Assembly: GCF_031432975.1 (NCBI RefSeq)
Contig: NZ_CP133838.1
Location: forward strand, 3,348,001 to 3,412,000
Direction: 5' to 3'
Length of the DNA stretch: 64,000 nucleotides
Source of the DNA: Buttiauxella selenatireducens
GTDB lineage: Bacteria; Pseudomonadota; Gammaproteobacteria; Enterobacterales; Enterobacteriaceae
Shown piece after piece: positions 11,738 through 64,000 of the stretch; position 1 is the stretch's first letter; every line of letters starts with the position of its first letter. The notes beneath the pieces are model-generated. The model was not told the origin of the DNA. It saw only the letters and a list, made by a program, of their open reading frames with translations, and made no database searches. A program made the position numbers and the translations under genes.

Positions 11738-12313
11738 TTAGCTTTCCAGGTGCTGAATACTGATGACATAGCCGAAACGATGGTGATGCACACTGACTGG
11801 CTGGCGACTTCCGTCACGCGTCAGGTAATGAATGGTTTCAATCAGCTCACCCTGGTCGTCACGTAATTCACGTCGCGAGTCGATATCTTTCAGTATCCAC
11901 CCCGCCGGCAGTTGCGGTTGCCAGGCGCTTATCGGCCAGTAACTCAACATAATATCGGCAAGAACCTGGCTGGCTGGAGGTAATTCTGGCAGCGTAATGG
12001 ACTGCTCGGTTTTAATACCCGATTGTGAGTAGGTCAGACGGAATAAACGGATGCCCAACGGGGATAAACCGGCCAGCATCACTTTTTCTTTGTCCGCATT
12101 CAGCAGCACCATCAGCGACTGAGTTTTGCCTTTAACCTGAGCACTCAGCAGTTGTTGTTCAGTGATTGACGGCGAAATGCCGGGAGCCGGTAGCGTCACC
12201 AGAGTACCCGGCTTTAACCAGGCTTGTGGACGGGTGTTGTCGGGTTTAGGCGAACTGCAGGCGCTGAGTAAAAACAGACCTGACAATAAGGCCAGAATAG
12301 GTAATTTTCTCAT
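11738..12313 (-). CDS. apeN: APE cluster lipoprotein ApeN (DUF3261)
   Basis: Predicted outer-membrane lipoprotein of 191 aa. The signal peptide ends in a lipobox LLSAC with the modified Cys near residue 19. The rest fits the DUF3261 proteins that accompany APE and related polyene clusters. Encoded directly after the MMPL exporter ApeM and close to the LolA-like ApeL, it probably helps place the pigment lipid in the outer membrane. This role is inferred from context. It is spaced 2 nt from apeM and 2 nt from apeO. Confidence 0.82.
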   Translation of the reverse strand: MRKLPILALLSGLFLLSACSSPKPDNTRPQAWLKPGTLVTLPAPGISPSITEQQLLSAQVKGKTQSLMVLLNADKEKVMLAGLSPLGIRLFRLTYSQSGIKTEQSITLPELPPASQVLADIMLSYWPISAWQPQLPAGWILKDIDSRRELRDDQGELIETIHYLTRDGSRQPVSVHHHRFGYVISIQHLES

Positions 12314-12315
12314 GG

Positions 12316-14643
12316 TTATCTCGCTCCCTCTCCTTGGGTCGATGGGGGTAAGGCTAATGGCGCAGTTAAAAATGCGCAGAAGATCCCGCAGCTCAACACA
12401 ATGCCAAAACTTGCGATGGCTTGTGTCTGGCTAAAGACCAGCATGCCTAAGGTGAAAAGTGTGGTCAGCAAGGCCACGCTGATGGCGAGCAACGACGTCA
12501 GCGGTGTACCGCGCGGATTACTAAAGAACAGGGTGTAATTAATGCCAATGCCCAACACCAGCACCAACGCCAGTAATGAAAACAGATTCAGCGCATGCCC
12601 GCTAAACGCCAGTGCAGCAAGGCCACCGCCGAGTGATAACAACGACGGCACCACATTCAGCAAACCGCGTTTTAGCCCTAATCGCAGCACATAACTCAGC
12701 GCAATCGCGGCCACGGCAATCACCAGTAATCCCGCCAGTAAACTACGAAAATGGCTGAACAGCTCATTGAACATGACTTTCCTGTCAACCCAACTGACAC
12801 CGGGCAGTTTTGCCGCAAGTGTCGCAAGCGCTGCGCTGTCACGAACACCGCTGACCGGCACCAGTGCGCCACTTTTACCGTCCGGCAAAGACAGCCACAA
12901 CAAACGCCAGCCGCTGCTAATGACGCTCTTTTGCCACAGTTCCGGCGTGACCGGCATTTGCTGAAGATTCGGCGCAGTGATGGTCACTCCGCTTTCCGCC
13001 AGCCGTTTTTGTAAAATCGGCGCGGCTTCACGCAGCAATTGCAAATCTGCCTGCTGCTGTTCAAGCGAGGCGAGCGGGATCAGTCGATAACTGTCGATAA
13101 GCTGGCTCTTTTGCGCGCCAGCCAGAACAGGGGCCAGTTTTTCGAGGCGTTGTAGCGTTTGTTCAGCCGTGTCGCCGTAAACGACAAACCATTTTTGATC
13201 CATCCCCTGCCCGGTTAGCGCGGTAATCGCCTGCTCCTCACGAACCAGATCCTGGGGTAATGCCTGAAAACTAGCGATGTCATCATTCACTTTTAATGAT
13301 GCAATCCCCACGAGGCTGATGACCAACAATGCCAACGGTATACCAAAGCGCACCGCTTTATTGTTTTGCCACGCATTCAACCAACCTTTAAGCAACGTGC
13401 TACAAGGTACCGGTCTGACGGGCAGACCGCGCACTGCGAACGGATACCAGCACACCACCGTGAGACAGGACGCGATCAACCCACTGGCGGCAAACACCGC
13501 GAGCTGGCGAATGCCAGGGAATGGCGCGAAGATCATGATCAGATAGGCGATGGCTGTGGTCGCTAATGCCAGCAACAAGGCGGGCAGCACTTTGCGTAAA
13601 CTGGCGATGGGCGAGTTTTGCGCGCCATGCACCATGCGCTCGGTGAGATAATAGAGCGTGTAATCCGCCGAAACACCCACGATGCTCATACTCATCACCA
13701 GCGTCATCAGATGCAGTTCGCCAAAACACAACAACGTTATTGCCGTTCCTGCCAGCGCGCCGATGGCGACTGACGTGGCACATAACAGTAATGGCCGCAC
13801 CGAACGAAACACCAGTAGTACCAGCAGCAACACGCCAATGACCGTTGCAAGCCCCAGCGTGGAGACATCATGTTTTGCCTGCTGGCTGGCATAATCGCTG
13901 TAGAACAAGGTGCCGCGCGACATCACCTGCGCCTGCGGGAATTGCTGTTTCAGGTTTTGTTCTAAAGCCCGCAGTTGCTCGACTGCCGCGCGCCCTTGCT
14001 GCATATCAAATGAGGAGCCTGTTAGTTCCCCGTGCAGCAAATACCAGTAGCGCCCCTGTTTATCCCGCGCCACCAGCCAGCCGTTTTGCAACCGCATTTG
14101 ACTGGCGGTTTGTTGCAGTGCCAGTTGCGATCCACGTACCAGCATCAAGGGATCGTGGGCTAACTCTTTCCCACTGACGCCAGAAAACGCCGAGTAGAGT
14201 TGCGATAACACCCACTGCGCCTGGGCTTCACCGCCGTTTTGCAAACGGCTGCGGGTCTGGTTATCCACCAGACCATTACGGTTTTCGAAGTAAAACTTCC
14301 CCCACTCCTGCTGGCTGCTGGCATCCATCGGCCCCTGGACATCTTGCAGGAACGGCTGCTGTTGCAGTTGTGATTGCCACCACTGCGCCGCAGCGGTATC
14401 CGGCGTATTACCCGGGCTGACCATCCACATCATCTGCCTGTCGAGACGTTGCAGAAAACCGTTCTCTATTTGCGGAGGGACGTTCCCCAGGCTGCTGGCC
14501 GGAAGCAACGACAATACGCTGCTGTCGAGTCGCGCCCTGGGGAGCAAAGTTGCGAGCAACACCACAAGCAGAGTGACTATCGCAAGCCAGCCCCATGCCA
14601 GGCGACGATGCACGTCAGAAAGCGAAGCGCTGCTGCTCTTCAT
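12316..14643 (-). CDS. apeM: MMPL/RND-type exporter ApeM
   Basis: Inner-membrane transporter of 775 aa with the RND/MMPL layout: one N-terminal membrane helix, a large periplasmic loop, a cluster of helices near residues 255-420, a second loop, and a final helix cluster near 630-765. A motif ADYTLYYL at the first cluster matches the Asp-Tyr motif of this family. It likely moves the aryl polyene or its lipid conjugate out of the inner membrane. The start at 14643 overlaps the end of apeL by 29 nt, and no clear ribosome site is visible. Confidence 0.88.
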   Translation of the reverse strand: MKSSSASLSDVHRRLAWGWLAIVTLLVVLLATLLPRARLDSSVLSLLPASSLGNVPPQIENGFLQRLDRQMMWMVSPGNTPDTAAAQWWQSQLQQQPFLQDVQGPMDASSQQEWGKFYFENRNGLVDNQTRSRLQNGGEAQAQWVLSQLYSAFSGVSGKELAHDPLMLVRGSQLALQQTASQMRLQNGWLVARDKQGRYWYLLHGELTGSSFDMQQGRAAVEQLRALEQNLKQQFPQAQVMSRGTLFYSDYASQQAKHDVSTLGLATVIGVLLLVLLVFRSVRPLLLCATSVAIGALAGTAITLLCFGELHLMTLVMSMSIVGVSADYTLYYLTERMVHGAQNSPIASLRKVLPALLLALATTAIAYLIMIFAPFPGIRQLAVFAASGLIASCLTVVCWYPFAVRGLPVRPVPCSTLLKGWLNAWQNNKAVRFGIPLALLVISLVGIASLKVNDDIASFQALPQDLVREEQAITALTGQGMDQKWFVVYGDTAEQTLQRLEKLAPVLAGAQKSQLIDSYRLIPLASLEQQQADLQLLREAAPILQKRLAESGVTITAPNLQQMPVTPELWQKSVISSGWRLLWLSLPDGKSGALVPVSGVRDSAALATLAAKLPGVSWVDRKVMFNELFSHFRSLLAGLLVIAVAAIALSYVLRLGLKRGLLNVVPSLLSLGGGLAALAFSGHALNLFSLLALVLVLGIGINYTLFFSNPRGTPLTSLLAISVALLTTLFTLGMLVFSQTQAIASFGIVLSCGIFCAFLTAPLALPPSTQGEGAR

Positions 14644-15220
14644 GAGTCAATTTTCGTGGGTCCAGTCGGTGATTACTAAAGGAGATCTCAGTGAAATCGC
14701 CCTGCAAATCGTTCAGTTCGATGCGATTAAGCACCTTATCGCCCTGCAGCGTGATAGTGCTAAACAGTTTATCGAGCGGCGTGGTGGTCGGCGTTAATAC
14801 CAGTTGCCATTTGCCGTTGCCCTGGTCGGTAAAGACATGAGAGAAGTTTTCATCGAGTACTTTCCGGTCAGCCTGGAATAACGCCCGTAACAAATGGTTG
14901 AACTGGAACATTTGTGGGTTGCTGTCTGCGGTGATGATTTGCGGAGCCTGGCTGCCCATCACCTGGACCATATGGCTGTCATCCAGTACCAGCGTCATTG
15001 GGAAGGGATGCTGTTGCTGCCACCACAAGCCTTTGCTTTTCGCGATAAGCACTTCGCCACTGGAATGCAGCGGTTGCGCCATTCCGCTAATTTGCCGTTC
15101 TTGTTGGAATTTAGCCCGCACGATGGGCTGCGACGCAAAACTGCGTTGCACGTCATCGAGGGTTATTGCGCTCGCCGTATAGCTGATAAACAGCAAGGCC
15201 ATTAAAAGAATCTTATTCAT
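14615..15220 (-). CDS. apeL: LolA-like periplasmic carrier ApeL
   Basis: Periplasmic LolA/LolB-fold protein of 201 aa with a Sec signal peptide cut near SYTASA. LolA proteins carry lipids or lipoproteins across the periplasm. Here the likely cargo is the aryl polyene lipid moving between ApeM and the outer membrane, an inference from position. The start overlaps the apeK stop (ATGAATAA), which supports translational coupling. Confidence 0.86.
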   Translation of the reverse strand: MNKILLMALLFISYTASAITLDDVQRSFASQPIVRAKFQQERQISGMAQPLHSSGEVLIAKSKGLWWQQQHPFPMTLVLDDSHMVQVMGSQAPQIITADSNPQMFQFNHLLRALFQADRKVLDENFSHVFTDQGNGKWQLVLTPTTTPLDKLFSTITLQGDKVLNRIELNDLQGDFTEISFSNHRLDPRKLTHEEQQRFAF

Positions 15221-15638
15221 TACTCAAGCCCATGCGTTCAAAAAGGATTGGAGGGGAAACAAAACACAGTTCGCCACTGGTTGCCGAAACAGCAACCTGA
15301 ATGGTGTAACCGGTGGTGGTGCGTTTACCATTTTGCGCATCAATAATTTCATAGCCGATTTTCAGGCGGTTTTCGTACTCCAGTATCGTGGCCCGAACCA
15401 GAATCTGTTGTTCAAACTTCACCACATCGCGGTATTTCACGCGGGTGTCGACCACCGGCCAAACGTAACCGGACTCTTGCATCGCACGGTATCCATAATC
15501 AAACTGGCCGAGCAATGCCTCGCGCGCCACTTCAAAGTAACGGAAATAGTTACCGTGCCACACCACGCCCATCGCATCGACATCATGGAAGGGAACTTTG
15601 ATGCTGACCTCAACGGAAAAACGTGGGTCATTTAACAT
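15213..15638 (-). CDS. apeK: Hot-dog thioesterase ApeK (4-hydroxybenzoyl-CoA thioesterase type)
   Basis: Acyl thioesterase of 141 aa. The motif HDVDAMGVVWHGNYFRYFE matches the active-site loop of 4-hydroxybenzoyl-CoA thioesterases, with the catalytic Asp at about residue 21. In the APE pathway it is thought to release or proof-read acyl intermediates from the carrier protein. It overlaps apeJ by 7 nt and apeL by 8 nt. Confidence 0.88.
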   Translation of the reverse strand: MLNDPRFSVEVSIKVPFHDVDAMGVVWHGNYFRYFEVAREALLGQFDYGYRAMQESGYVWPVVDTRVKYRDVVKFEQQILVRATILEYENRLKIGYEIIDAQNGKRTTTGYTIQVAVSATSGELCFVSPPILFERMGLSNE

Positions 15639-54764: not shown

Positions 54765-56183
54765 ATGGGTTCCAATGTTTTGATTGATGAAAAAGCGATA
54801 AAGGCAAAAATAAGGCCTTTTGGCATGAGAGATAAAATTGGCTACTTGTGTGGTGATTTAGGGACTTGCTTTATTTTAGGCCTGGTTAACAGCTTCCTTA
54901 TGATCTATTACACCAACGTCCTTGGTGTGTCAGGAATAATCGTTGGGTCACTGTACTTCGGAACAAAACTGTTTGATGCATTTGTTGATGTCACTGTTGG
55001 TCGTATGTGTGACACGTCAAAATTGACAGCAACAGGTCGTTTTAACCCGTGGATTCGGAGAATGAAGTATCCGTTTTGTGCCATTGCTGTCATGTTATTT
55101 TTGCCATTTGCACAAGAGCTCTCCTATACAGGCAAAATAATTTATATCTGCGTTTCGTATTTTTTATACGGCGCTCTGTTATCGACCATCAACATTCCTT
55201 ATGGCGCAATGTCAGCGGCGATCAGTTCCAGCCCAGACGATCGCGTATCGCTCTCTACATACAGAAGCGTTGGCTCGGCAATCGGTGGTGGTGCAACAGG
55301 CTTCTTTATCCCTATTCTGATGTACAAAACCCTTGTTGATGGCAGCCAGGTTATTTCTGGTCAGCACTTCTTCTGGATCTCTATTGGTTGCGCATGTCTT
55401 GCTTTCATCTTCCTGACATTGACCTGCAAATTAACAACCGAGCGTGTCCGTGTTGAAGCGAAAGAGAGCGTACCCGTTTCACAACTGGTTAAAGGCTTGC
55501 TGAAAAATAAAGCACTGATCGTTCTGGTCGTGGTTGACCTGCTCATTGTGATCAACCAGGGCTTATCCGGTACCAACATGACTTACCTGTTCAATGACTA
55601 TTTCCATGATAAACAGGCTATGTCCGTCGCACTCTTGTTTACCTTTGGCTCTCTCGTATTACTGGCACCTTCTGCCTCTTATTTAACCAAGCGATTTGGC
55701 AAGAAAGAAGCCAGCGTTTGTGCACTGATGTTCTCAGTTGGCATGTATGTACTTATGTATTTCTGCCACATCACAGATCCGAAGATCTATTTGGTTCTGC
55801 TGTTCCTGGCAACATTGGGTGCAGGCCTGTTTAACCTGATGATCTGGGCATTTATGACAGATGTGTGCGATTACCATCAGTATGTCACTGGCACTCGTGA
55901 AGACGGCACCGTGTACGGCGTCAACTTCTTCGCCAGAAAAATTGGACAGGCGTGTGCAGGCGGAATTGGTGGTTTCATGTTGGCGTTAATTAACTATCAA
56001 TCTTCTTCTACAGGTGGATCAGTACAAAGCCTCGAAGTTCAAGAAAGTATTTATACCATGGCAAACCTTCTTCCAGCATTTTGCTTGTTTGCTTCAGCCG
56101 TAATTTTGATTTACTTCTATCCATTGAACAAGAAAACCACTCTTGATATGGAAAAAACTTTGAATAAGATCAACGGAATTTAA
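54765..56183 (+). CDS. GPH-family sugar:cation symporter
   Basis: Inner-membrane symporter of the glycoside-pentoside-hexuronide family. It is 472 aa with twelve hydrophobic segments and the early conserved DKIGYLCGDLGTCF and FDAFVDVTVGRMCDTSK motifs, the latter with its Asp pair for cation coupling. The paired GH28 gene suggests uptake of pectin-derived oligogalacturonide or related sugars. It is AT-richer than the chromosomal backbone. It is 28 nt from the GH28 gene, so the two form an operon. Confidence 0.88.
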   Translation: MGSNVLIDEKAIKAKIRPFGMRDKIGYLCGDLGTCFILGLVNSFLMIYYTNVLGVSGIIVGSLYFGTKLFDAFVDVTVGRMCDTSKLTATGRFNPWIRRMKYPFCAIAVMLFLPFAQELSYTGKIIYICVSYFLYGALLSTINIPYGAMSAAISSSPDDRVSLSTYRSVGSAIGGGATGFFIPILMYKTLVDGSQVISGQHFFWISIGCACLAFIFLTLTCKLTTERVRVEAKESVPVSQLVKGLLKNKALIVLVVVDLLIVINQGLSGTNMTYLFNDYFHDKQAMSVALLFTFGSLVLLAPSASYLTKRFGKKEASVCALMFSVGMYVLMYFCHITDPKIYLVLLFLATLGAGLFNLMIWAFMTDVCDYHQYVTGTREDGTVYGVNFFARKIGQACAGGIGGFMLALINYQSSSTGGSVQSLEVQESIYTMANLLPAFCLFASAVILIYFYPLNKKTTLDMEKTLNKINGI

Positions 56184-56211
56184 CCGTTTAATTAATTAAG
56201 GGAGATTTAGC

Positions 56212-57516
56212 ATGACAACTCAACTCGATATTAAAGACTTTGGTGCAATCGGAGACGGGATCGAAAAAGATACCTTCGCTATTCAGCAAGCGATTAACCA
56301 GGGTGCAGAACAAGGTGTTACTGTTTTTATTTCAAAAGGGATTTATTTGGTTGGTGCGCTATTCTTAAAAGAAGGAAGTAAATTAAAATTTGAGAAGGGA
56401 GCAACGCTGTTAGGTTCAACCGACATCTCTGATTATCCGGAAATTAATACCCGCGTGGCCGGTGTTGAAATGTTATGGCCTGCAGCAATATTGAATGCTA
56501 TCTCTGCAAATAATGTCGAGATTTCAGGTGAAGGGTTGATTGATGGGCAAGGCCAACACTGGTGGGATATCTATTGTGGTGCCGACAAAAACAGCGGTTT
56601 GCGCGTTGACTACGATAAGAAAGGCCTGCGTTGGATCGCCGACTATCTCGTTAAACGCCCGCGATCTTGCTTGATTTATGAAGCTGAAAATATCAAGATT
56701 TCTGATCTTACATTTGAGCGTGCTGGCTTCTGGAATTTGCAGATTACCTACGCCAATAATGTCCTGGTTCGTAAAGTAAAAATTGGTGATAACCACGGCC
56801 CAAGCACTGATGGCATTGACATTGACTCCTCCACAAATGTGCGTGTCACCGAATGCGAAGCCTCATGTGGTGATGATTGCATCGTTATCAAATCCGGTCG
56901 TGATGGCGACGGTCACCGTGTGGGCAGAATCTCTGAAAACATTGAAGTGGATAATTGCAAAATAAAATCTGGCTACGGTATTACGCTGGGCAGTGAAGTC
57001 AGCGGCGGTATTCGTGGCGTACATATTCATGACATCGAATTTGAAAATTCGGATTGTGGATTTAGAATGAAATCATCCAAAGAGCGCGGTGGTTTTATTG
57101 AGGATGTCATTGTAGAAAACCTCCATATGAAGAATGTTCAATTCCCATTCTCATGGATTATGGACTGGCATAACTCGTATAACAGAAAGCTCTTTGAAAA
57201 TATTGAGCAGTTACCGACTATGTGGCAAGCCGTTGCTTTGCAAATACCCGAAGACATGCAAATGACTAAGGTCAGGAATATTAGTATCTCTAATGTTAAT
57301 GCCACCTTAGATTCTGATTATGCTTTACCGGCAAGGGCATTTGATCTGGTCGCATTCCCAGAAAAACCGATGGAGAACATTCGATTCAGCCAATGCAATA
57401 TTGAGGCAAAAGAATTTGGGCGCATCGTTGCGGTTAATGGCCTGCAATTTAATGATGTCACCGTCTCTGTTGCAGAAGAAAACAATTACTCAAACGATAC
57501 ATTTGATAATCAGTAA
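56212..57516 (+). CDS. GH28-family glycoside hydrolase (pectin-type), altered motif
   Basis: Right-handed beta-helix hydrolase of 434 aa without a signal peptide, so it should act in the cytoplasm on imported oligosaccharides. Three of four GH28 motifs are close to type: STDGIDID (Asp200, 203 and 205), GDD (Asp221/222) in SCGDDCIVIKSG, and the basic RMK at 285-287. The usual GHG is GYG at 254-256, so the motif His is Tyr255. Catalytic Asp residues remain, so it may be active with different specificity. Exo-polygalacturonase is one possibility and rhamnogalacturonan-type another. Confidence 0.87.
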   Translation: MTTQLDIKDFGAIGDGIEKDTFAIQQAINQGAEQGVTVFISKGIYLVGALFLKEGSKLKFEKGATLLGSTDISDYPEINTRVAGVEMLWPAAILNAISANNVEISGEGLIDGQGQHWWDIYCGADKNSGLRVDYDKKGLRWIADYLVKRPRSCLIYEAENIKISDLTFERAGFWNLQITYANNVLVRKVKIGDNHGPSTDGIDIDSSTNVRVTECEASCGDDCIVIKSGRDGDGHRVGRISENIEVDNCKIKSGYGITLGSEVSGGIRGVHIHDIEFENSDCGFRMKSSKERGGFIEDVIVENLHMKNVQFPFSWIMDWHNSYNRKLFENIEQLPTMWQAVALQIPEDMQMTKVRNISISNVNATLDSDYALPARAFDLVAFPEKPMENIRFSQCNIEAKEFGRIVAVNGLQFNDVTVSVAEENNYSNDTFDNQ

Positions 57517-57543: not shown

Positions 57544-57592
57544 TATCGAGGCTGGCGTAAGGCCGAATGATGGCTTTACGCTAGCCTCGATA
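57544..57592 (+). repeat. Long hairpin after the GH28 gene
   Basis: A 21-nt stem (57544-57564 with 57572-57592) closes a 7-nt loop with two mismatches that are G-T pairs in RNA. It lies 27 nt after the GH28 stop. There is no T-run next to it, so it is either a mRNA-stabilising or poorly terminating hairpin. It resembles neither of the other repeats here. Confidence 0.7.
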
Positions 57593-57691: not shown

Positions 57692-59296
57692 ATGCTAAAG
57701 AACGTTCCTTTCCAGAAGACGATGGTCGCCAGCATGCTGACGTTAGCATGTACTGCCGTTTCCAGCGTCTATGCCGCCCCTACAGAAACAACAACTACAA
57801 CAACAACGTCGTCTGAAGCCCCTAAACAAGATTCAACTAAACCTAACATCGTGGTGATTTTCGGCGACGATATTGGTTACTGGAATATCAGTACCTATAA
57901 CCAGGGAACGATGGGTTACAAAACGCCGAACATTGACAGTATTGCCAATGAAGGTGCCAAGTTCACATCCTATTACGCAGAGCAAAGCTCCACCGCCGGG
58001 CGCTCTTCATTCATTACCGGGCAAATGCCATTCCGCACCGGGATGAGTAAAGTCGGCATGCCTGGTGCGCCACAAGGCATCAGCAAAGACGACCCAACCA
58101 TCGCAAACATCCTTAAACAACTCGGTTATGCCACCGGGCAGTTTGGTAAAAACCACCTTGGCGACCGGGATGAATTCCTGCCAACCGCCCACGGTTTCGA
58201 TGAATTCCTCGGTAACCTGTACCACCTGAATGCCGAAGAAGAACCCGAAAACCCGGATTACCCGAAAGATCCAGAATACCGTAAACAGTTTGGCCCTCGC
58301 GGCGTAATTAAGAGCACCGCCGACGGCAAAATTGAGGATACCGGCCCGCTCACCATCAAGCGTATGGGCACGGTTGACGAGGAAACTCTCGCCGCCAACA
58401 ACGACTTTATGGAACGCCAGACCAAAGCCGGTAAGCCGTTCTTTACCTGGTTTAACACCACCCGCATGCACAACAAAACCCACCTCAAAGACGGCAGCAT
58501 TGGCGTCACCGGATTGGGGACGTATGCAGACGGTATGGTTGAACATGACAAGATGATCGGTGAGGTGTTGCAGAAGATTAAAGACCTCGGCATTGAAGAC
58601 AACACTATCGTGCTTTACACCACCGATAACGGCCCGATGCTCGCCACCTGGCCGGACTCAGGCATGACACCGTTCAGAGGTGAGAAAAACACCGGCTGGG
58701 AAGGTGGTTTCCGCGTCCCTGCCATGATCAAATGGCCGGGTCACATCAAACCCGGCACATTGATTAACGACATTTTCGGCAGTAATGACTGGTTCCCGAC
58801 GCTGGTTGCCGCAGCAGGCGTTCCTGACATTAAAGAGCAATTGCTCAAAGGCTACAAAACCACATCCATGACCTACAAAGTCCATCTTGACGGCTATAAC
58901 CAGCTCGACTTCCTGCAAGGCAAAGGTGAAGACCCGCGTAAAGAGTTCTTCTACTGGAGCGATGATGGCGACTTGCTGGCGATTCGCTATGGCCGCTGGA
59001 AAGCGCACTTCATGATTCAGGAACACACAGGCATGGATGTCTGGCGTTATCCGTTCACCGTACTGCGTGCACCCATGATTTTCGATCTGGAAATCGACCC
59101 GCTTGAAAAAGGTGATACCGGTATGGACTACAACAGCTGGTTCTACAGCCGTCTATTCCTGCTGGGTGGTGCGCAGAAATATGTGGGTGAGATGCTGCAA
59201 AGCTTCAAAGAATTCCCACCACGCCAGAAACCGGGCTCGTTCACCGTCACCGACGTTCAGTCGCTGATTGAGCAAGGTTCAGGCGCGAATAATTAA
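57692..59296 (+). CDS. Serine-type arylsulfatase (exported)
   Basis: Formylglycine-dependent sulfatase of 534 aa that would cleave sulfate esters in the periplasm. A Sec signal peptide ends SVYA (residue 28), followed by a Thr-rich linker (residues 31-39). Metal ligands are in IFGDD near 60. The motif SSTAGRSS has Ser100 in S-T-A-G-R104, so it belongs to the Ser-type class that only anaerobic-type maturases can convert. It resembles Klebsiella AtsA in that respect. The maturase gene follows, with a terminator-like hairpin between them. Confidence 0.92.
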   Translation: MLKNVPFQKTMVASMLTLACTAVSSVYAAPTETTTTTTTSSEAPKQDSTKPNIVVIFGDDIGYWNISTYNQGTMGYKTPNIDSIANEGAKFTSYYAEQSSTAGRSSFITGQMPFRTGMSKVGMPGAPQGISKDDPTIANILKQLGYATGQFGKNHLGDRDEFLPTAHGFDEFLGNLYHLNAEEEPENPDYPKDPEYRKQFGPRGVIKSTADGKIEDTGPLTIKRMGTVDEETLAANNDFMERQTKAGKPFFTWFNTTRMHNKTHLKDGSIGVTGLGTYADGMVEHDKMIGEVLQKIKDLGIEDNTIVLYTTDNGPMLATWPDSGMTPFRGEKNTGWEGGFRVPAMIKWPGHIKPGTLINDIFGSNDWFPTLVAAAGVPDIKEQLLKGYKTTSMTYKVHLDGYNQLDFLQGKGEDPRKEFFYWSDDGDLLAIRYGRWKAHFMIQEHTGMDVWRYPFTVLRAPMIFDLEIDPLEKGDTGMDYNSWFYSRLFLLGGAQKYVGEMLQSFKEFPPRQKPGSFTVTDVQSLIEQGSGANN

Positions 59297-59304
59297 AACA
59301 ACAC

Positions 59305-59330
59305 ACCGGGCGGGAAGCTGCCCGGTTTTT
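59305..59330 (+). terminator. Hairpin between sulfatase and maturase
   Basis: ACCGGGC pairs with GCCCGGT around an 8-nt loop and is followed by TTTT, 8 nt after the sulfatase stop. It would end most sulfatase transcripts and leave lower expression of the maturase and MoxR genes. Confidence 0.85.
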
Positions 59331-59355
59331 CAAGGCCTGCTGTCAGGGGAAAGCC

Positions 59356-60651
59356 ATGAAATACAGCACGACATTGCCGGTTAAAGCATTACCGTCAGCA
59401 GAAAAATATGATGGCAAAGGCCCTGAATACAAACGACGCTTCCACGTCATGGCGAAGCCTACTGGCTCAACCTGTAATCTTGACTGCTCCTACTGTTTTT
59501 ACCTGCACAAAGAGGAGTTACTGCATCAAGACCGCCACACCGGTATGAGCGACGAGGTGCTGGAAAATTTCATTCGTCAGTACATTGACGGGCAAGATGG
59601 CGAACAAGTGGTTTTCTCCTGGCAAGGTGGCGAACCGACCTTGATGGGACTCGAGTTTTTTGAAAAAGTCGTCAAATTCCAGAAACAGTACCAAAAAACC
59701 GGCCAGCGCATCGAAAACGACTTACAAACCAACGGCGTGCTGATCAACGACAAATGGGCTGAATTTCTCAAAGAACACCGTTTTCTGGTTGGTCTGTCGA
59801 TAGACGGCCCACGAGAATTGCACGACCGCTATCGCGTCACGCGTAGCGGAAAACCGACATTCGATAAAGTGATGAAAGGCGTCGAGGCGCTTAAAAAATA
59901 CAAAGTCCCGTTTAATGCGCTGGTCACGGTCAACCGCACCAACGCCCGCTTCCCGCTGGAAGTGTACCGCTTTGTCACCCGCGAACTGGGTGCCACCTAC
60001 GTGCAGTTTAACCCGTGCGTAGAACCGGTTGATTTCAAAGTCACCGCCCCGCAATTCTGGCGCGATGACACCATCCCGATTACCGGCTCACGCCGCGCAC
60101 GACCAGGCGATCTCGACTCTATCGTTACAGACTGGTCGGTGGACCCTGAAGACTGGGGCACCTTCCTGAAAACCGTGTTTGAAGAGTGGGTGAATAACGA
60201 TTTAGGTCGTGTACAGGTCAACCTGTTTGAAACCGCCGTTGCCCAAACCATGGGCATGCCCGCGCAGATTTGTACCGCGTCTGAATTCTGCGGCAAAGGC
60301 CTGGCGGTCGAAAAGAACGGCGATATTTATTCCTGTGACCATTACGTCTACCCGGAATATCAGCTAGGCAATATCGAAAACACCAAACTGGCGCACATGG
60401 CGTTTTCCGAACGTCAGCAAGCCTTCGGCATGGGTAAAAAAGATACGCTACCGGAGTACTGCAAACAGTGCCCGTACCTGAAGTTATGCTGGGGTGAATG
60501 CCCGAAAAACCGCCTGGTGCGCACCCCAGACGGCGAACCCGGCCTCAATTACCTCTGCCCCGGCATCAAAGCGTTCTTCAATTATGCCGAACCGATCCTG
60601 GTCGGTATTGCCACTATTTTGAAACGTGACTTTGCAGGATTGCGTAAATGA
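59356..60651 (+). CDS. Anaerobic sulfatase-maturating radical SAM enzyme (AtsB-like)
   Basis: Radical SAM enzyme that oxidises the active-site Ser of sulfatase to formylglycine in the cytoplasm. It is 431 aa with the cluster motif C40-NLD-C44-SY-C47, conserved GGEPTLMGLEFF, and a SPASM region with CGKGL, CDHYVYPE and CKQCPYLKLCWGECPKNR, which hold two auxiliary clusters. Its stop overlaps the ATG of the MoxR gene by 4 nt. The neighbouring Ser-type sulfatase is the clear substrate. Confidence 0.94.
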   Translation: MKYSTTLPVKALPSAEKYDGKGPEYKRRFHVMAKPTGSTCNLDCSYCFYLHKEELLHQDRHTGMSDEVLENFIRQYIDGQDGEQVVFSWQGGEPTLMGLEFFEKVVKFQKQYQKTGQRIENDLQTNGVLINDKWAEFLKEHRFLVGLSIDGPRELHDRYRVTRSGKPTFDKVMKGVEALKKYKVPFNALVTVNRTNARFPLEVYRFVTRELGATYVQFNPCVEPVDFKVTAPQFWRDDTIPITGSRRARPGDLDSIVTDWSVDPEDWGTFLKTVFEEWVNNDLGRVQVNLFETAVAQTMGMPAQICTASEFCGKGLAVEKNGDIYSCDHYVYPEYQLGNIENTKLAHMAFSERQQAFGMGKKDTLPEYCKQCPYLKLCWGECPKNRLVRTPDGEPGLNYLCPGIKAFFNYAEPILVGIATILKRDFAGLRK

Positions 60652-61646
60652 CAAACCGAGAGAAACTGCTCGAACTTGAGCTGCGCATGAACCAACAAGT
60701 ACTGGGTCAGGAATCGCTGGTCCGCATGCTGATTGTCGCCCTGCTGTGTGACGGCCACGTTTTGCTCGAAGGTTTGCCGGGGCTGGCAAAAACTCGCGCA
60801 GTACGTGAGCTCGCCCGCCACGTAGAGGGCGATTTCCGGCGTATTCAGTTCACGCCGGATCTTCTGCCATCAGACATTACCGGCAGCGAGATTTACCAGC
60901 AAAACGCCACGCGTGAAGAAGACCAGTTCCGTTTCCGCCCAGGCCCGGTGTTTGGCAACATCATCCTTGCCGATGAGATAAACCGCGCCTCGGCGCGTGT
61001 GCAGTCGGCATTGCTTGAAGCGATGGAAGAACGCCACGTCACCGTTGCCGGTAAAACCTGGCCGTTGCCGGGAGTTTTCATGGTGCTGGCTACGCAAAAC
61101 CCCGTTGACCAGGAAGGCACCTGGCCGCTCCCGGAAGCCCAGCTTGACCGCTTCCTGATGAAAGTTCTGGTGGATTACCCATCAAAGGCCAATGAGCAGA
61201 AAGTGATGCAACTGGTGCGATCCGAACAGCAGCAAAAATACCAGTCTGATACTCAAGAATCGCAAGAAAAACCACCCGAAACCCTGATGCTCTCGCAGCA
61301 AGATATCGCCACGTGCTGGCAGGAAATCTCAGCGGTTTACGTCGCACCCACCATTGAAAATTACATCGTCAACCTGGTGGATATGACGCGTCATCCGCAG
61401 GGTATCAGCGACACACTCGCCAGCTACATCACTTTTGGCGTTAGCCCACGCGGCACGCTGGCTCTCGACCGTTGCGGTCGCGCGCTGGCGTGGCTTGAAG
61501 GCCGTGATGCGGTACTGCCGGAAGATATTCAGCGCGTCGCCCCTGCGGTGTTGCGCCACCGCCTGATGCTGAGCTACCAGGCGAATGCCGATAACTGCTC
61601 GCCAGATGACGTGATTAAGCTATTGCTCGATGCGGTGGTGGCGTAA
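60648..61646 (+). CDS. MoxR-family AAA+ ATPase
   Basis: AAA+ protein of 332 aa. The Walker A is GLPGLAKT (42-49) and the Walker B is IILADEINR (105-113). MoxR proteins act with VWA-domain partners as chaperone-like systems in cofactor or metal insertion and stress response. The start overlaps the maturase stop (ATGA). The stop overlaps the start of the DUF58 gene. The role with the sulfatase is inferred from this coupling. Confidence 0.93.
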   Translation: MTNREKLLELELRMNQQVLGQESLVRMLIVALLCDGHVLLEGLPGLAKTRAVRELARHVEGDFRRIQFTPDLLPSDITGSEIYQQNATREEDQFRFRPGPVFGNIILADEINRASARVQSALLEAMEERHVTVAGKTWPLPGVFMVLATQNPVDQEGTWPLPEAQLDRFLMKVLVDYPSKANEQKVMQLVRSEQQQKYQSDTQESQEKPPETLMLSQQDIATCWQEISAVYVAPTIENYIVNLVDMTRHPQGISDTLASYITFGVSPRGTLALDRCGRALAWLEGRDAVLPEDIQRVAPAVLRHRLMLSYQANADNCSPDDVIKLLLDAVVA

Positions 61647-62551
61647 TGAATAGCGCATTGCAGGTGGACCGCCAAACGCTGATGGCACTTGCAGGCGAAG
61701 CTCGGCTGCTGTCGAACCCGCCGGGGCAAATCCCACCGGGTGCGCTCGCGGGTGAACGCGTGTCGCGCCAACAAGGGCGTGGGCTAAATTTTGACAGTCT
61801 CAGGCGCTATCAACCTGGCGATGATGTCCGGCTAATCGACTGGCAAGCCACCGCCCGTCTGCGATCGCCGTGGATTCGCTTGTACAACGAAGAGCGCGAA
61901 CGCCCGGTTTTTCTGATTGTCGATCAGCGTCTGGATATGTTTTTTGCCACTCGGGGGCAAACCAAATCGGTAGCCGCCGCCAAAATTGCAGGCCTGTTGG
62001 CATGGCGAAGCTGGCACGATGGCGATCGTCTGGGCTGCGCGATATTCAGCGACACGAATTACAGCCTGCAAAAATGCCGGGCTCCACGAACCAGTCTGCC
62101 TGTGGTGCTCGACGACGTGCTGCAATACAACCAACAATTACCCGAACGTTATCCTGATGAAACGCCCGCTACAGTCACTCTCGCAAGCGTGTTGCAACAC
62201 GCCGTACAACTGATCCCCAGCGGCTCCTGGGTAGCGATAATCAGTGATTTTCACGACCTGGATGCCCCCGCAGAAGCCTTGCTTGCGAACCTGAGAAGAC
62301 GCTGTGAAATCAGCGCATTTGTCACCCTTGACGATCTCCATCTGACGCTCCCTGCGCAGGGCAATCTGGCTGCCCGCTATCAGGGTCATGAAGCGGCATT
62401 TTCGCTCTCACCAGGGCTAAAAGATGAGATCCAACAGAGCGTGACATCGCGGCTGTCCAGACTTGCGAATCGACTGACACGGCTGGGTATTCGCGTAAAT
62501 CAGATATTGGTCGCGCAGGATCTTATCAAACAGCTACAAAAGGGAGTGTGA
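61646..62551 (+). CDS. DUF58 protein of a MoxR/Bat operon
   Basis: DUF58-family protein of 301 aa. The family signature YQPGDDVRLIDWQATARLR is at about residues 52-70. A VWA-like fold follows. It overlaps the MoxR stop by 1 nt (TAATG). It accompanies MoxR ATPases in many bacteria, but its biochemical role is not known. Confidence 0.9.
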   Translation: MNSALQVDRQTLMALAGEARLLSNPPGQIPPGALAGERVSRQQGRGLNFDSLRRYQPGDDVRLIDWQATARLRSPWIRLYNEERERPVFLIVDQRLDMFFATRGQTKSVAAAKIAGLLAWRSWHDGDRLGCAIFSDTNYSLQKCRAPRTSLPVVLDDVLQYNQQLPERYPDETPATVTLASVLQHAVQLIPSGSWVAIISDFHDLDAPAEALLANLRRRCEISAFVTLDDLHLTLPAQGNLAARYQGHEAAFSLSPGLKDEIQQSVTSRLSRLANRLTRLGIRVNQILVAQDLIKQLQKGV

Positions 62552-62992
62552 ATGCTGGAGAAAGGATTTAGCGTGCCGGCATTATTGCTCCCGGCGCTAC
62601 CGCAGAAAATATCCTGGTTTCCCCTGCCCCCAGGCTGGTTTGTTCTGGGCGGCGTGTTACTCCTCGTGTTACTGGTTTATCTGTTATTCCGTTTTGCCCG
62701 CTGGCGGCGCAATTTATGGCGTCGTGAAGCACAGGCTGCGTTGCAACAACCGCACAGCGCCGATAGCTGGCTGGAACTGATTAAACGCATTCTTCTGATG
62801 CACCAGGCGCGCAGCCATATCAGCCACACTCTTTCACCGCAGCAACTGTTACAGCAGGTGGAAATCGACAACGATTTGCGCCAGCAACTGAGCGACAAAT
62901 ATTGCCAGCCGGATAACCAACTCGACGCGGTTCAAAACGCACGTCTGCAATCGCAGCTGAACACCTGGCTGGAGAAACTGCCTTATGTCTGA
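62552..62992 (+). CDS. DUF4381 membrane protein of the Bat-like operon
   Basis: Small protein of 146 aa with a single membrane segment at about residues 27-47 followed by a basic cytoplasmic-side region (RFARWRRNLWRREAQ) and an alpha-helical tail. It fits DUF4381, a regular partner of MoxR/VWA modules. It starts next to the DUF58 stop and overlaps the VWA gene by 8 nt. Confidence 0.85.
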   Translation: MLEKGFSVPALLLPALPQKISWFPLPPGWFVLGGVLLLVLLVYLLFRFARWRRNLWRREAQAALQQPHSADSWLELIKRILLMHQARSHISHTLSPQQLLQQVEIDNDLRQQLSDKYCQPDNQLDAVQNARLQSQLNTWLEKLPYV

Positions 62993-63962
62993 GTTTCTGA
63001 GCCGCCTGGATTTTGCCTGGCCCTGGGCATGGCTGCTGATTTTTCTGCCGCTGATTGGCCGTTATTTTTTACCGCAAGACCGCGAAGTGAAAGAGCATGT
63101 GCGCGTGCCGTTTTTACCGGAACTGATTGATGAGCTGAAACTGAACAGCCAGCCGGTGCGCAGCAGTAAACTCGCCAATCTGGTTTTCTGGCTGGTGTGG
63201 CTCCTGCTTGTCGCAGCACTTTCACGCCCGGAATACCTGACGCCGCCGCAACACATACAAAAACCGATGCGCGATGTGGTGCTGATTCTGGATGTTTCCG
63301 GCTCGATGGGGAAAAACGATATTCAGGGCGGTTTAACCCGTTTGCAGGCGGTCCAGGCATCAGTGCGTAAATTCGTCGCGGCGCGTAAAACCGACCGCAT
63401 CGGGCTGGTGATTTTTGCAAGCCAGGCCTGGCCGTTTGCCCCGGTCAGCGAGGATAAACAGGCGTTACAAACGCGGATTAACCAACTCGCTCCCGGCATG
63501 ATTGGCCAGCAAACCGCCATCGGCGATGCACTGGGCGTTGGCGTGAAACTGCTCGACAGCACCACCAATAAAGATGCCAGCAAGCTGGCGATTTTGCTCA
63601 CCGACGGGAATGATACCGCTTCGCAGTTAGCGCCAGCACTCGCCGCACAACTGGCGGCGACGCATCACGTTCAGGTTCACACCATCGCCTTTGGCGACCT
63701 CAATAGCACTGGCGATGACAAAGTAGATTTGCCGCTCATGCAGGACATTGCTCGCATTACTGGCGGAAAATCCTGGACCGCCGCCAACTCAGGAATCGCG
63801 CTGGACAGTGTCTGGCAAGAGATCGATGCCATTACGCCGGTACAGGTGAAATCCATCGGCTGGTCGTGGCACATTCCGTTGTTCCAGTGGCCCCTGCTAC
63901 TGGCGCTGGCGTTGCTGATTTTGCTCGCGGCCGGGCGGTTTATTCGGGAGAAAACAGCATGA
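62985..63962 (+). CDS. VWA-domain membrane protein (BatA-like)
   Basis: Membrane-anchored von Willebrand factor A protein of 325 aa with helices near residues 11-29, 64-80 and 303-320. The MIDAS motif is ILDVSGSMG (Asp103, Ser105, Ser107), with a later TDGND. The VWA domain would face the periplasm if the N-terminal hairpin is correct. It overlaps the next gene as ATGA. Confidence 0.92.
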   Translation: MSEFLSRLDFAWPWAWLLIFLPLIGRYFLPQDREVKEHVRVPFLPELIDELKLNSQPVRSSKLANLVFWLVWLLLVAALSRPEYLTPPQHIQKPMRDVVLILDVSGSMGKNDIQGGLTRLQAVQASVRKFVAARKTDRIGLVIFASQAWPFAPVSEDKQALQTRINQLAPGMIGQQTAIGDALGVGVKLLDSTTNKDASKLAILLTDGNDTASQLAPALAAQLAATHHVQVHTIAFGDLNSTGDDKVDLPLMQDIARITGGKSWTAANSGIALDSVWQEIDAITPVQVKSIGWSWHIPLFQWPLLLALALLILLAAGRFIREKTA

Positions 63963-64000
63963 GTGACGTCCATTTTGTTTATCCCTGGCGGCTACTCGGC
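63959..64000 (+). CDS. Start of a following gene, probably a second Bat-like protein (partial)
   Basis: An ATG at 63959 overlaps the VWA stop (ATGA) and opens the frame MSDVHFVYPWRLLG to the window edge. The start resembles the N-terminus of BatB-type VWA proteins, where a membrane hairpin follows FxYPW-like sequence. Only 14 residues are visible, so the product is inferred from order. Confidence 0.55.
   Translation, partial: MSDVHFVYPWRLLG

Follow-up and report, generated by a model that had tools for sequence, protein, structure and literature searches.

Organization of the sulfatase operon

The window analysed here, a stretch of 64,000 nucleotides from Buttiauxella selenatireducens (contig NZ_CP133838.1, positions 3,348,001 to 3,412,000), ends inside an operon that encodes, in this order, a sulfatase, a radical-SAM maturase (anSME), a MoxR ATPase, a DUF58 protein, a DUF4381 protein, a VWA protein, a VWA-TPR protein, a BatD-like protein and a secreted HAD phosphatase, and that is longer than the window, extending beyond its end at 64000. 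The genes from VWA2-TPR to the HAD phosphatase correspond to positions 11954-15488 of our locus L001, and the features are the following:

57544..57592, no strand: long inverted repeat in the interval between the GH28 and sulfatase genes, seen in the sequence, with a putative role
57692..59296, plus strand: Ser-type S1 sulfatase, 534 aa, with a Sec-like N-terminus (by eye); clade A by the tree; PF00884 at 168.7 bits; active-site Ser
59305..59326, no strand: G+C-rich hairpin within the 59 bases that separate sulfatase and maturase, a pattern match only (L001 7306-7327, minus-strand entry)
59356..60651, plus strand: radical-SAM/SPASM sulfatase maturase (anSME, AtsB type), 431 aa; TIGR03942 at 517 bits (cut-off 349)
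60648..61646, plus strand: MoxR AAA+ ATPase, 332 aa, of the sulfatase-linked clade II by the tree; PF07726 at 207.9 bits; Walker A GLPGLAKT, Walker B
61646..62551, plus strand: DUF58 protein, 301 aa, in which neither DxSxS nor a hydrophobic segment was found
62552..62992, plus strand: DUF4381 protein, 146 aa; single hydrophobic segment near the N-terminus
62985..63962, plus strand: VWA1 (BatA-like), 325 aa; MIDAS beginning DVSGS; VWA domain between predicted membrane segments
63953..64000 and on to 65482, plus strand: VWA2-TPR (BatB/BatC-like), 509 aa, no DxSxS; 48 bases inside the window
65479-66495 (extrapolated window coordinates), plus strand: BatD-like gene, 338 aa; no Pfam match
66492-67487 (extrapolated window coordinates, beyond the window), plus strand: secreted HAD phosphatase, 331 aa

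The inverted repeat sets the unit apart from the upstream GH28 and transporter genes and likely marks where the preceding unit ends, which would make the sulfatase gene the probable start of the operon. The GH28 and GPH-transporter genes were rejected as members of the unit, since GH28 is found only in L002 among the compared gammaproteobacterial loci. The hairpin might keep expression of the genes that follow below that of the sulfatase. In an alignment with arylsulfatase A, the residues of which we take to define the catalytic and metal-ligand positions, the sulfatase shows the Ser-type S1 core S-x-A-x-R (..EQSSTAGR..), metal ligands DD and DN and the catalytic Lys and His, and the maturase has radical SAM and SPASM domains and scores above the cut-off of the anSME equivalog TIGR03942, just as the initial annotation had proposed for this pair. 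The ATGA overlap of the maturase stop and MoxR start codons that it described is likewise present. The chain of overlaps that it drew from MoxR through DUF58 and DUF4381 to the two VWA genes is found between MoxR and DUF58 (1 base), DUF4381 and VWA1 (8 bases) and VWA1 and VWA2 (10 bases), but DUF58 and DUF4381 abut; beyond these, the BatD-like and HAD phosphatase genes each start within the preceding gene. In none of 5426 E. coli genomes did a match cover 80% of the stretch from sulfatase to MoxR.

The MoxR protein is an AAA+ ATPase with the AAA_3 core and AAA_lid_2 domains above their curated cut-offs and with Walker A and B motifs, and its closest solved relative by sequence is 2r44. Together with its neighbors it forms a Bat-type operon, MoxR-DUF58-VWA-VWA/TPR-BatD in order, with a BatA-like MIDAS; the BatD-like gene served as the seed of our batD profile, and its counterparts are annotated as BatD in plasmid records. 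By simple patterns, Walker A and DExNR are present in 81 of 85 sulfatase-linked loci and [DN]xSxS in 84 of 84. A PQQ methanol dehydrogenase gene, as adjoins Mxa-type modules, is absent from the operon. In a relative from Paracoccus yeei, a PQQ dehydrogenase gene adjoins the module.

Distribution of the sulfatase-MoxR association

The association joins one clade of sulfatases (clade A) to one clade of MoxR proteins (clade II), the boundaries of both having been set by us on quickly made trees in which clade II as a whole has a support of 81. Among 148 genomes, 22 carry both a clade A sulfatase and a clade II MoxR, 2 have the sulfatase alone, 3 the MoxR alone and 121 neither, and within seven genera, compared over the genomes listed in the sulfatase and MoxR searches, the two are mostly present or absent together (CMH p 1.6e-7). 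The MoxR profile search of the genomes missed three genes that fall in clade II of the tree (G087, G131 and G144), all in genomes already counted as clade II, and may thus overlook copies; in one scoring step at most three candidates per genome were scored. The two genes are also neighbors: a clade A sulfatase is encoded no farther than 10 kb from 22 of the 32 clade II MoxR genes, but near none of the 26 canonical clade I genes taken from genomes with a sulfatase, and counted by genome the adjacency holds in 19 of 24 clade A genomes. Seen from the sulfatase, MoxR lies within 10 kb of 10 of 15 clade A members and of 0 of 33 others in eight genomes chosen for having the pair, and sulfatase-centred stretches, which left out the same-genus genomes G112 and G140, hold MoxR in 34 of 78 clade A loci and in 1 of 21 others. 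On plasmids, where 10 of 221 records with MoxR matches, chosen from the best 40, were examined together with L241 from the octaheme matches described below, a sulfatase accompanies all 10 clade II MoxR loci and is missing from the single clade I locus.

The 33 gammaproteobacterial loci, chosen by MoxR similarity in a scan of named genomes, all contain maturase, MoxR, DUF58, DUF4381, two VWA and BatD genes, while HAD and sulfatase genes are each found in 32; the sole locus without a sulfatase, L014, is on a contig where the maturase match begins at base 130. Such constancy greatly exceeds chance. In the MoxR tree, clade II, with 76 rows, takes in 65 of the 66 sulfatase-linked rows and clade I, with 31 rows, none, the linked MoxR of L164 lying outside both; since the unlinked control rows had been chosen as unlinked, the tree can be read as showing that MoxR proteins with a linked sulfatase and those without mostly form separate clades. 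The linkage label switches at least 22 times in the sulfatase tree, and gene order and orientation vary among the linked loci. Clade-specific co-occurrence and adjacency are found across classes, from the Enterobacterales, Aeromonas, other families of the same GTDB order and further families of the class and phylum to named alphaproteobacteria, a plasmid of Caballeronia (a betaproteobacterium) and one Bacteroidota plasmid, so that the conservation outside close relatives on which the original proposal had been staked is indeed present. A tie confined to Buttiauxella and its kin is ruled out by the MoxR tree, the genome table, the plasmid loci and these distant taxa, and a tie of any sulfatase to any MoxR by the 0 of 33 other sulfatases and by the 40 control MoxR loci, none of which has any sulfatase in its stretch; these controls were preselected as far from the searched sulfatase and show only that other sulfatases are absent from them too.

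The association is not strict. No MoxR is present in the fetched stretch of 44 of 78 clade A loci, a clade II MoxR is missing from 2 of 24 clade A genomes, one genome (G030) has a clade II MoxR and no sulfatase match at E<=1e-20, and two Bosea loci (L036 and L041, the latter on a short contig) have a clade II MoxR without a sulfatase. A putative function directed at the sulfatase is well supported, though from genomics alone.

Maturases of the linked sulfatases

The initial annotation proposed that the module, being coupled to a formylglycine maturase, acts on sulfatase maturation, export or metal loading. A sulfatase-directed function agrees with the distribution described above, but a specific coupling to the formylglycine maturase is not well supported, since the alphaproteobacterial loci have the same module and a sulfatase with 54-61% identity, and a radical-SAM maturase in 0 of 20. 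The linked sulfatase of these loci is of the Cys type, and an FGE is encoded in 15 of 20 (E<=1e-100), with the FGE Cys pair in 16 of 20; outside loci of the window type FGE, or nothing recognised, takes the place of the radical-SAM maturase, and the sulfatase is of the Cys type. The tie between sulfatase and module is not a tie to the radical-SAM maturase and does not require the Ser type, and an action of MoxR on this maturase as a general rule is ruled out.

Among 34 linked clade A loci, anSME is found in 6, FGE in 6 and an octaheme cytochrome-HEAT/TPR protein in 15, absence of FGE being defined by one query protein at E<=1e-15; FGE-like genes in L099, L101, L114 and L116 lack the Cys pair and were discarded as true FGEs. 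The octaheme protein mostly adjoins Cys-type sulfatases, and its Pfam and NCBIfam matches are to multihaem cytochrome, HEAT and TPR families and to scattered TPR proteins, with none to the FGE or anSME families. The genome-wide search for it left out G105, G309 and G348, and on plasmids 13 of 145 records were examined, drawn from the best 20 with near-copies skipped. It is a candidate third maturase. In a fuller version of this idea, which we regard as doubtful, anSME, a copper-type FGE and the octaheme-HEAT/TPR protein, the last as an undescribed periplasmic system oxidising Cys-type sulfatases, would be interchangeable makers of formylglycine, and the clade II MoxR/Bat module would then activate the modified sulfatase. 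This reading is weakened by four octaheme loci that do encode an anSME, 12-18 kb away from the sulfatase and so beyond the stretches of the initial count. If the octaheme protein is a maturase, it would bear on the question of a third sulfatase maturation system, which Benjdia et al. in 2007 reportedly raised for E. coli. A 2015 paper also touches on the sulfatase maturation machinery of that species.

Possible functions of the module

We consider it slightly better than an even chance (about 0.5) that the MoxR/Bat genes encode a machine dedicated to an exported formylglycine sulfatase, acting with or after formylglycine formation and independently of the enzyme that makes the formylglycine. 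MoxR and DUF58 would work on the cytoplasmic side, and DUF4381, the two membrane-anchored VWA proteins, one of them with TPRs, and the BatD-like protein would relay this work to or into the periplasm, a topology suggested by hydrophobicity and by N-termini judged by eye. The client would most likely be the sulfatase itself, perhaps along with the co-encoded secreted HAD phosphatase, and the most likely action, taking place after or alongside formylglycine formation by whichever enzyme, would be an ATP-driven remodelling that completes the sulfatase. This step may be the loading of the active-site divalent metal, our best guess though less likely than not, by analogy with the Mxa and NorQ/NorD systems described below. 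Maturation, export and metal loading are indistinguishable from sequence, but among them we would give plain export the lowest chance, since the linked sulfatases have Sec-like or twin-arginine-like N-termini, assigned by eye rather than with a signal predictor. The N-termini of many alphaproteobacterial linked sulfatases appear twin-arginine-like, again by eye, and these enzymes may therefore fold and load metal before export, with which loading in the periplasm fits less well.

The sulfatase might also share a pathway with the module without being acted upon, the module guarding the envelope or sensing stress during uptake and desulfation of a hydrophobic sulfate ester, as a co-regulated helper with another client. 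This is the most serious alternative, although we hold it to be rather unlikely. It gains from the possible pathway parts encoded near the module, namely the sulfatase, HAD and FadL- or phenol-type outer membrane proteins and DUF1254 proteins (in the alphaproteobacterial loci phenol-type outer membrane genes 11/20, DUF1254 12/20 and HAD 16/20), and from the link between Bat modules and stress tolerance elsewhere, as stated in an excerpt of PMC11834572. Yet the transporters and HAD are inconstant, the latter being present in 12 of 34 linked clade A loci, and FadL-type genes were rejected as pathway evidence and carry little weight, since they are about equally common in the gammaproteobacterial loci (14/33) and near control MoxR loci (14/40). 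The sulfatase, in turn, is the sole partner recurring in all linked sets, though these sets were defined by the sulfatase.

Help with formylglycine formation as such, the sulfatase being handed over to anSME, FGE or the octaheme protein for instance, would account for the maturation genes often found in the linked loci and for the translational overlap of maturase and MoxR in the window. We nevertheless find it improbable, since a single helper would have to serve unrelated maturation chemistries and since anSME and FGE are cytosolic in bacteria, whereas most parts of the module are predicted, from hydrophobicity only, to be membrane-bound or periplasmic. Furthermore, of the 25 clade A loci that encode anSME or FGE, 13 show no MoxR within the stretch, and these maturases thus do not need a nearby MoxR everywhere. 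Joint travel on plasmids or islands without any functional tie is in agreement with the patchy distribution within genera and with the plasmid copies in Pantoea, Rahnella, Agrobacterium, Paracoccus and Persicobacter, but it is made highly improbable by the facts that co-occurrence is kept in genomes where the pair is unlinked (G099, G105 and G134), that arrangements differ widely and that the other sulfatases show no such tie.

The presence of MoxR/Bat genes beside one exported sulfatase family in many distant bacteria, whatever the activating enzyme, thus suggests that the machine serves the sulfatase, and if this dedicated role is true, formylglycine formation would not be what completes these enzymes. 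To our knowledge, few clients of Bat-type MoxR/VWA modules have been identified, and since the presence of clade II predicts one exported and assayable enzyme family, it offers a direct test of what such a module does. Neither a sulfatase-MoxR module nor a sulfatase-linked octaheme protein is described in the excerpts reached by our literature search, which was limited and does not establish absence from print; the excerpts of PMC7159879 and PMC9736018, which mention MoxR together with sulfatase, arylsulfatase or formylglycine, likewise describe no sulfatase-MoxR module.

Comparison with known systems

In the window module we find the same families in the same order as in the Bat (Bacteroides aerotolerance) operons, which consist of MoxR-DUF58-VWA-VWA/TPR-BatD. 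This gene content is also given in an excerpt of PMC11834572. The window MoxR differs in that it belongs to a clade apart from the canonical proteobacterial modules and adjoins a sulfatase, as is the case for none of the 26 clade I genes. The mxaRSACKL genes are similar by description, as MoxR and further accessory genes there adjoin a periplasmic metalloenzyme. In that set DUF58/VWA proteins are encoded by mxaS, C and L, and the accessory proteins, which insert Ca, are thought to load the metal into the Ca-PQQ methanol dehydrogenase; the putative client in the window is a sulfatase and not a PQQ enzyme. The methanol dehydrogenase gene order, mxaF-J-G-I-R-S-A-C-K-L, is that of an excerpt of PMC6414531. 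NorQ/NorD, which load iron into nitric oxide reductase, and CbbQ/CbbO likewise combine a MoxR ATPase with a VWA protein for activating a specific enzyme, according to excerpts of PMC9976466, but NorQ/NorD are there considered most likely cytosolic, whereas the window module adds several predicted membrane or periplasmic partners. Finally, the Ser-type sulfatase and its adjoining TIGR03942 maturase resemble the AtsA/AtsB pairs (anSME), from which they differ in that a MoxR/Bat module and a HAD phosphatase belong to the same operon.

Operon context and conservation

The gene set of the initial annotation, a sulfatase with its radical-SAM maturase (anSME) and a series of MoxR/VWA genes, is borne out, as all of these are present in the window, and 3' of it the chromosome carries the operon on with genes for a VWA-TPR protein, a BatD-like protein and a secreted HAD phosphatase, and all three genes overlap their predecessor. 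The contig measures 5.2 Mb, and the host genome holds 13 sulfatase matches, four maturases above the TIGR03942 cut-off and a single MoxR above the AAA_3 cut-off, which is the operon's own and shares 99% identity with the MoxR of Buttiauxella sp. A111. Directly upstream, at window 54765-57516, a GPH-type sugar transporter gene and a GH28 polygalacturonase-like gene are found, a placement seen among relatives only in locus L002.

The window MoxR served as query against named genomes, and of 202 loci 80 were kept. Genes for the maturase, MoxR, DUF58, DUF4381, two VWA proteins and BatD are present in all 33 gammaproteobacterial loci, and those for the HAD phosphatase and the sulfatase in 32 each, the sole locus without sulfatase (L014) lying on a contig that begins about at the maturase. 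The 20 alphaproteobacterial loci (Bosea, Methylobacterium and their relatives), whose MoxR proteins are 55-58% identical to that of the window, all contain the module, 18 of them with a sulfatase (54-61% identical) and 16 with the HAD phosphatase. Conserved co-occurrence, on which the coupling proposed in the initial annotation depends, hence holds for sulfatase and module in both classes but not for the radical-SAM maturase, which is found in none of the 20 alphaproteobacterial loci. The alphaproteobacterial sulfatases have Cys where the window sulfatase has Ser, and FGE is found at E<=1e-100 in 15 of the 20 loci, with the FGE Cys pair read in 16. No sulfatase was found in the 27 loci of other phyla. 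In Klebsiella aerogenes NCTC10006 (L259:7709-9004) the same operon has its maturase annotated as two pieces, which may reflect a real break or a sequencing error. The operon on a contig labelled Chryseobacterium sp. 18061 (L017) closely resembles that of Citrobacter sp. 18056 (L018), both having similar identities to the window, and the contig is probably a contaminant or mislabelled.

Association of clade A sulfatases with clade II MoxR

In order that loci were not chosen by their MoxR, sampling was also carried out from the sulfatase side, where 29 of 148 genomes of the order had a match at E<=1e-100 and a search of 398 genomes of the phylum gave 43 at E<=1e-130, with at most three candidates scored per genome; this yielded 99 sulfatase-centred stretches, mostly of 19.5 kb, the three genomes of the own genus being left out. 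The sulfatase tree places the window sulfatase in what we call clade A, and MoxR is present in 34 of 78 clade A loci versus one of 21 loci of other sulfatases. The layouts vary, since sulfatase and module may be on the same strand or divergent, with the module before or after and the HAD gene between them or not. In eight genomes chosen for having a pair, with 48 sulfatases and 24 MoxR genes listed, a MoxR gene is found within 10 kb for 10 of 15 clade A sulfatases as opposed to none of the 33 others, two of which have one at 12 and 15 kb.

From the MoxR side, 40 control loci were taken that are not near a sulfatase of the 148-genome search and come mostly from sulfatase-bearing genomes, and a profile search found no sulfatase in any of these 40 stretches. 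A MoxR tree built on 135 rows puts 31 of the controls in the canonical clade I (support 98) and nine, together with linked genes, in clade II (support 81), which has 76 rows, 65 of them sulfatase-linked; L164, also linked, falls outside both clades. Scores against a clade I profile separate the two in the 148 genomes (493-617 bits for clade I versus 401-464 for clade II). Clade II MoxR occurs in 25 of these genomes and clade A sulfatase in 24, with both in 22, only the sulfatase in two (G029, G146), only MoxR in three (G030, G055, G109) and neither in 121 (Fisher p 6e-21; CMH p 1.6e-7 within seven genera; neither test models the tree). Twenty-two of 32 clade II MoxR genes (29 profile-listed and three from the tree) are within 10 kb of a sulfatase of the 148-genome search, as against none of 26 from clade I in genomes that have a sulfatase; counted per genome, the tie at this distance is found in 19 of 24 clade A genomes. 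It is also found in G109, where the sulfatase is of Ser type and does not belong to clade A.

A plasmid collection gave 221 records with the MoxR query. Eleven MoxR loci were read. Ten of them, including L241 from the octaheme search described below, score as clade II, and in each of these ten stretches there is a sulfatase; the eleventh, of clade I, is without one.

Plasmid gene orders
Paracoccus yeei: arylsulfatase-MoxR-...-BatD, FGE in the stretch
Agrobacterium: arylsulfatase-MoxR-...-BatD-FGE-HAD
Persicobacter (Bacteroidota): arylsulfatase-hypothetical-MoxR-...-BatD

On the Paracoccus yeei plasmid the module is followed by a PQQ-dependent dehydrogenase of methanol/ethanol type (L251:15826-17616).

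An octaheme protein beside the sulfatases

A protein of about 650-830 aa, which combines HEAT/TPR repeats with mostly eight CxxCH haem motifs, is encoded beside the sulfatase and/or a clade II MoxR in many of the order's loci and in some from other families in the phylum. Some sulfatase loci encode FGE-like proteins that lack the FGE Cys pair, and in nine others a haem-free homologue of the HEAT/TPR half occurs.

Octaheme genes (also in L241-L250 and L254-L256)
L086:6172-8559
L104:10826-13072
L163:6393-8717
L148:6755-8701

FGE-like genes without the Cys pair
L099:12391-13368, adjoining an octaheme gene
L101:10441-11301, between sulfatase and MoxR
L114:7770-8555
L116:575-1360

Haem-free homologues, near anSME in loci of Cys-type sulfatases
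L103:12481-13488
L105:6017-7090
L106:5758-6876
L113:5903-6970

The octaheme protein is a candidate for a third formylglycine-generating system, if on the sequences at hand an unlikely one. The adjacent sulfatases are mostly of Cys type. When 32 genomes were searched for both maturases, anSME was found in 16 and FGE in two, and 13 have clade A sulfatases of Cys type and neither maturase. Ten of these 13 (G029, G072, G083, G134, G146, G212, G319, G385, G449, G478) have an octaheme gene in the stretches read, by MoxR in G134, by sulfatases outside clade A in G212 and with only the gene end in G083; none was seen in those of G105, G309 and G348. Octaheme matches in plasmids number 145 records, and 12 of 13 stretches read contain a sulfatase, while FGE or anSME is found in none of the 13. 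A four-base overlap is shared by the sulfatase and octaheme genes of Methylosinus, and in Aureibacter the octaheme gene comes after cytochrome b and Rieske genes. Among the 78 clade A stretches, 22 have the octaheme gene, 25 have anSME or FGE and none has both (Fisher p 4e-5, relatedness ignored), the figures for the order's 42 being 18, 12 and none (p 3e-4, relatedness again ignored). In eight anSME loci (L103, L105-L110, L113) the haem-free homologue is found in place of the octaheme protein, as though anSME could stand in for the haem part and the haem part for anSME; six homologues compared are 25-33% identical to the octaheme HEAT/TPR half over about 300 aa, and L115 has one as well, with anSME 9 kb from the sulfatase in that genome. 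The separation is however looser once sequence beyond the stretches is counted, and we rate a maturase role lower because anSME genes are found 12-18 kb from octaheme-linked sulfatases in G065, G141, G021 and G114, and at 22 kb in G464. It is likewise disfavoured by L126, outside clade A, where the octaheme gene shares a stretch with anSME and a Ser-type sulfatase, by the octaheme plasmid stretch L249, which has no sulfatase, by one Aureibacter sulfatase with a core Ser, and by the core pattern not being found in several plasmid sulfatase frames. Furthermore, we know of no catalytic precedent for such a maturase.

Possible function of the module

Of 85 linked MoxR proteins, 81 show both Walker A and DExNR patterns, all 84 VWA1 proteins of linked loci have [DN]xSxS, and a pattern search found no DxSxS in the window VWA2 and DUF58. 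Hydrophobic segments and the positive-inside rule suggest that the VWA domains sit between membrane anchors in the periplasm. By eye, sulfatase N-termini appear Sec-like in the window and twin-arginine-like in many alphaproteobacterial relatives; a simple RR pattern, some matches to which are spurious, occurs in 18 of 69 linked versus 10 of 72 unlinked sulfatase rows.

Type I phosphodiesterases have a fold related to that of sulfatases. One with a weak PF00884 match lies between sulfatase and MoxR at L148:10542-12293, and profile matches were obtained in seven further loci. Several enzymes of the sulfatase/phosphodiesterase fold might be clients of the module.

No description of a sulfatase-MoxR module was found in the literature searched. 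The sole passage on sulfatase in PMC7159879 is about an effector domain with an FGE fold that belongs to other conflict systems, and PMC9736018 has MoxR in one table row and a formylglycine-family protein in another.

On the sequence data sulfatase and module are partners, and the particular step that joins them we infer from precedent. The active site of type I sulfatases contains a divalent metal, whose ligand positions align in the window sulfatase; the accessory genes of the methylotroph mxa cluster have a role in Ca loading. Because of these points and the two precedents that follow, we propose that the MoxR/Bat module would complete the sulfatase, perhaps by loading its metal. In other systems a MoxR/VWA pair serves to activate a single enzyme; NorQ/NorD, which the module resembles in being of MoxR/VWA type, does so by iron insertion into nitric oxide reductase according to PMC9976466. 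It likewise resembles the mxa cluster in that a MoxR-type gene (there mxaR) and accessory genes are found next to an enzyme, which in mxa is a Ca-PQQ enzyme, as seen from the gene order in a table of PMC6414531.
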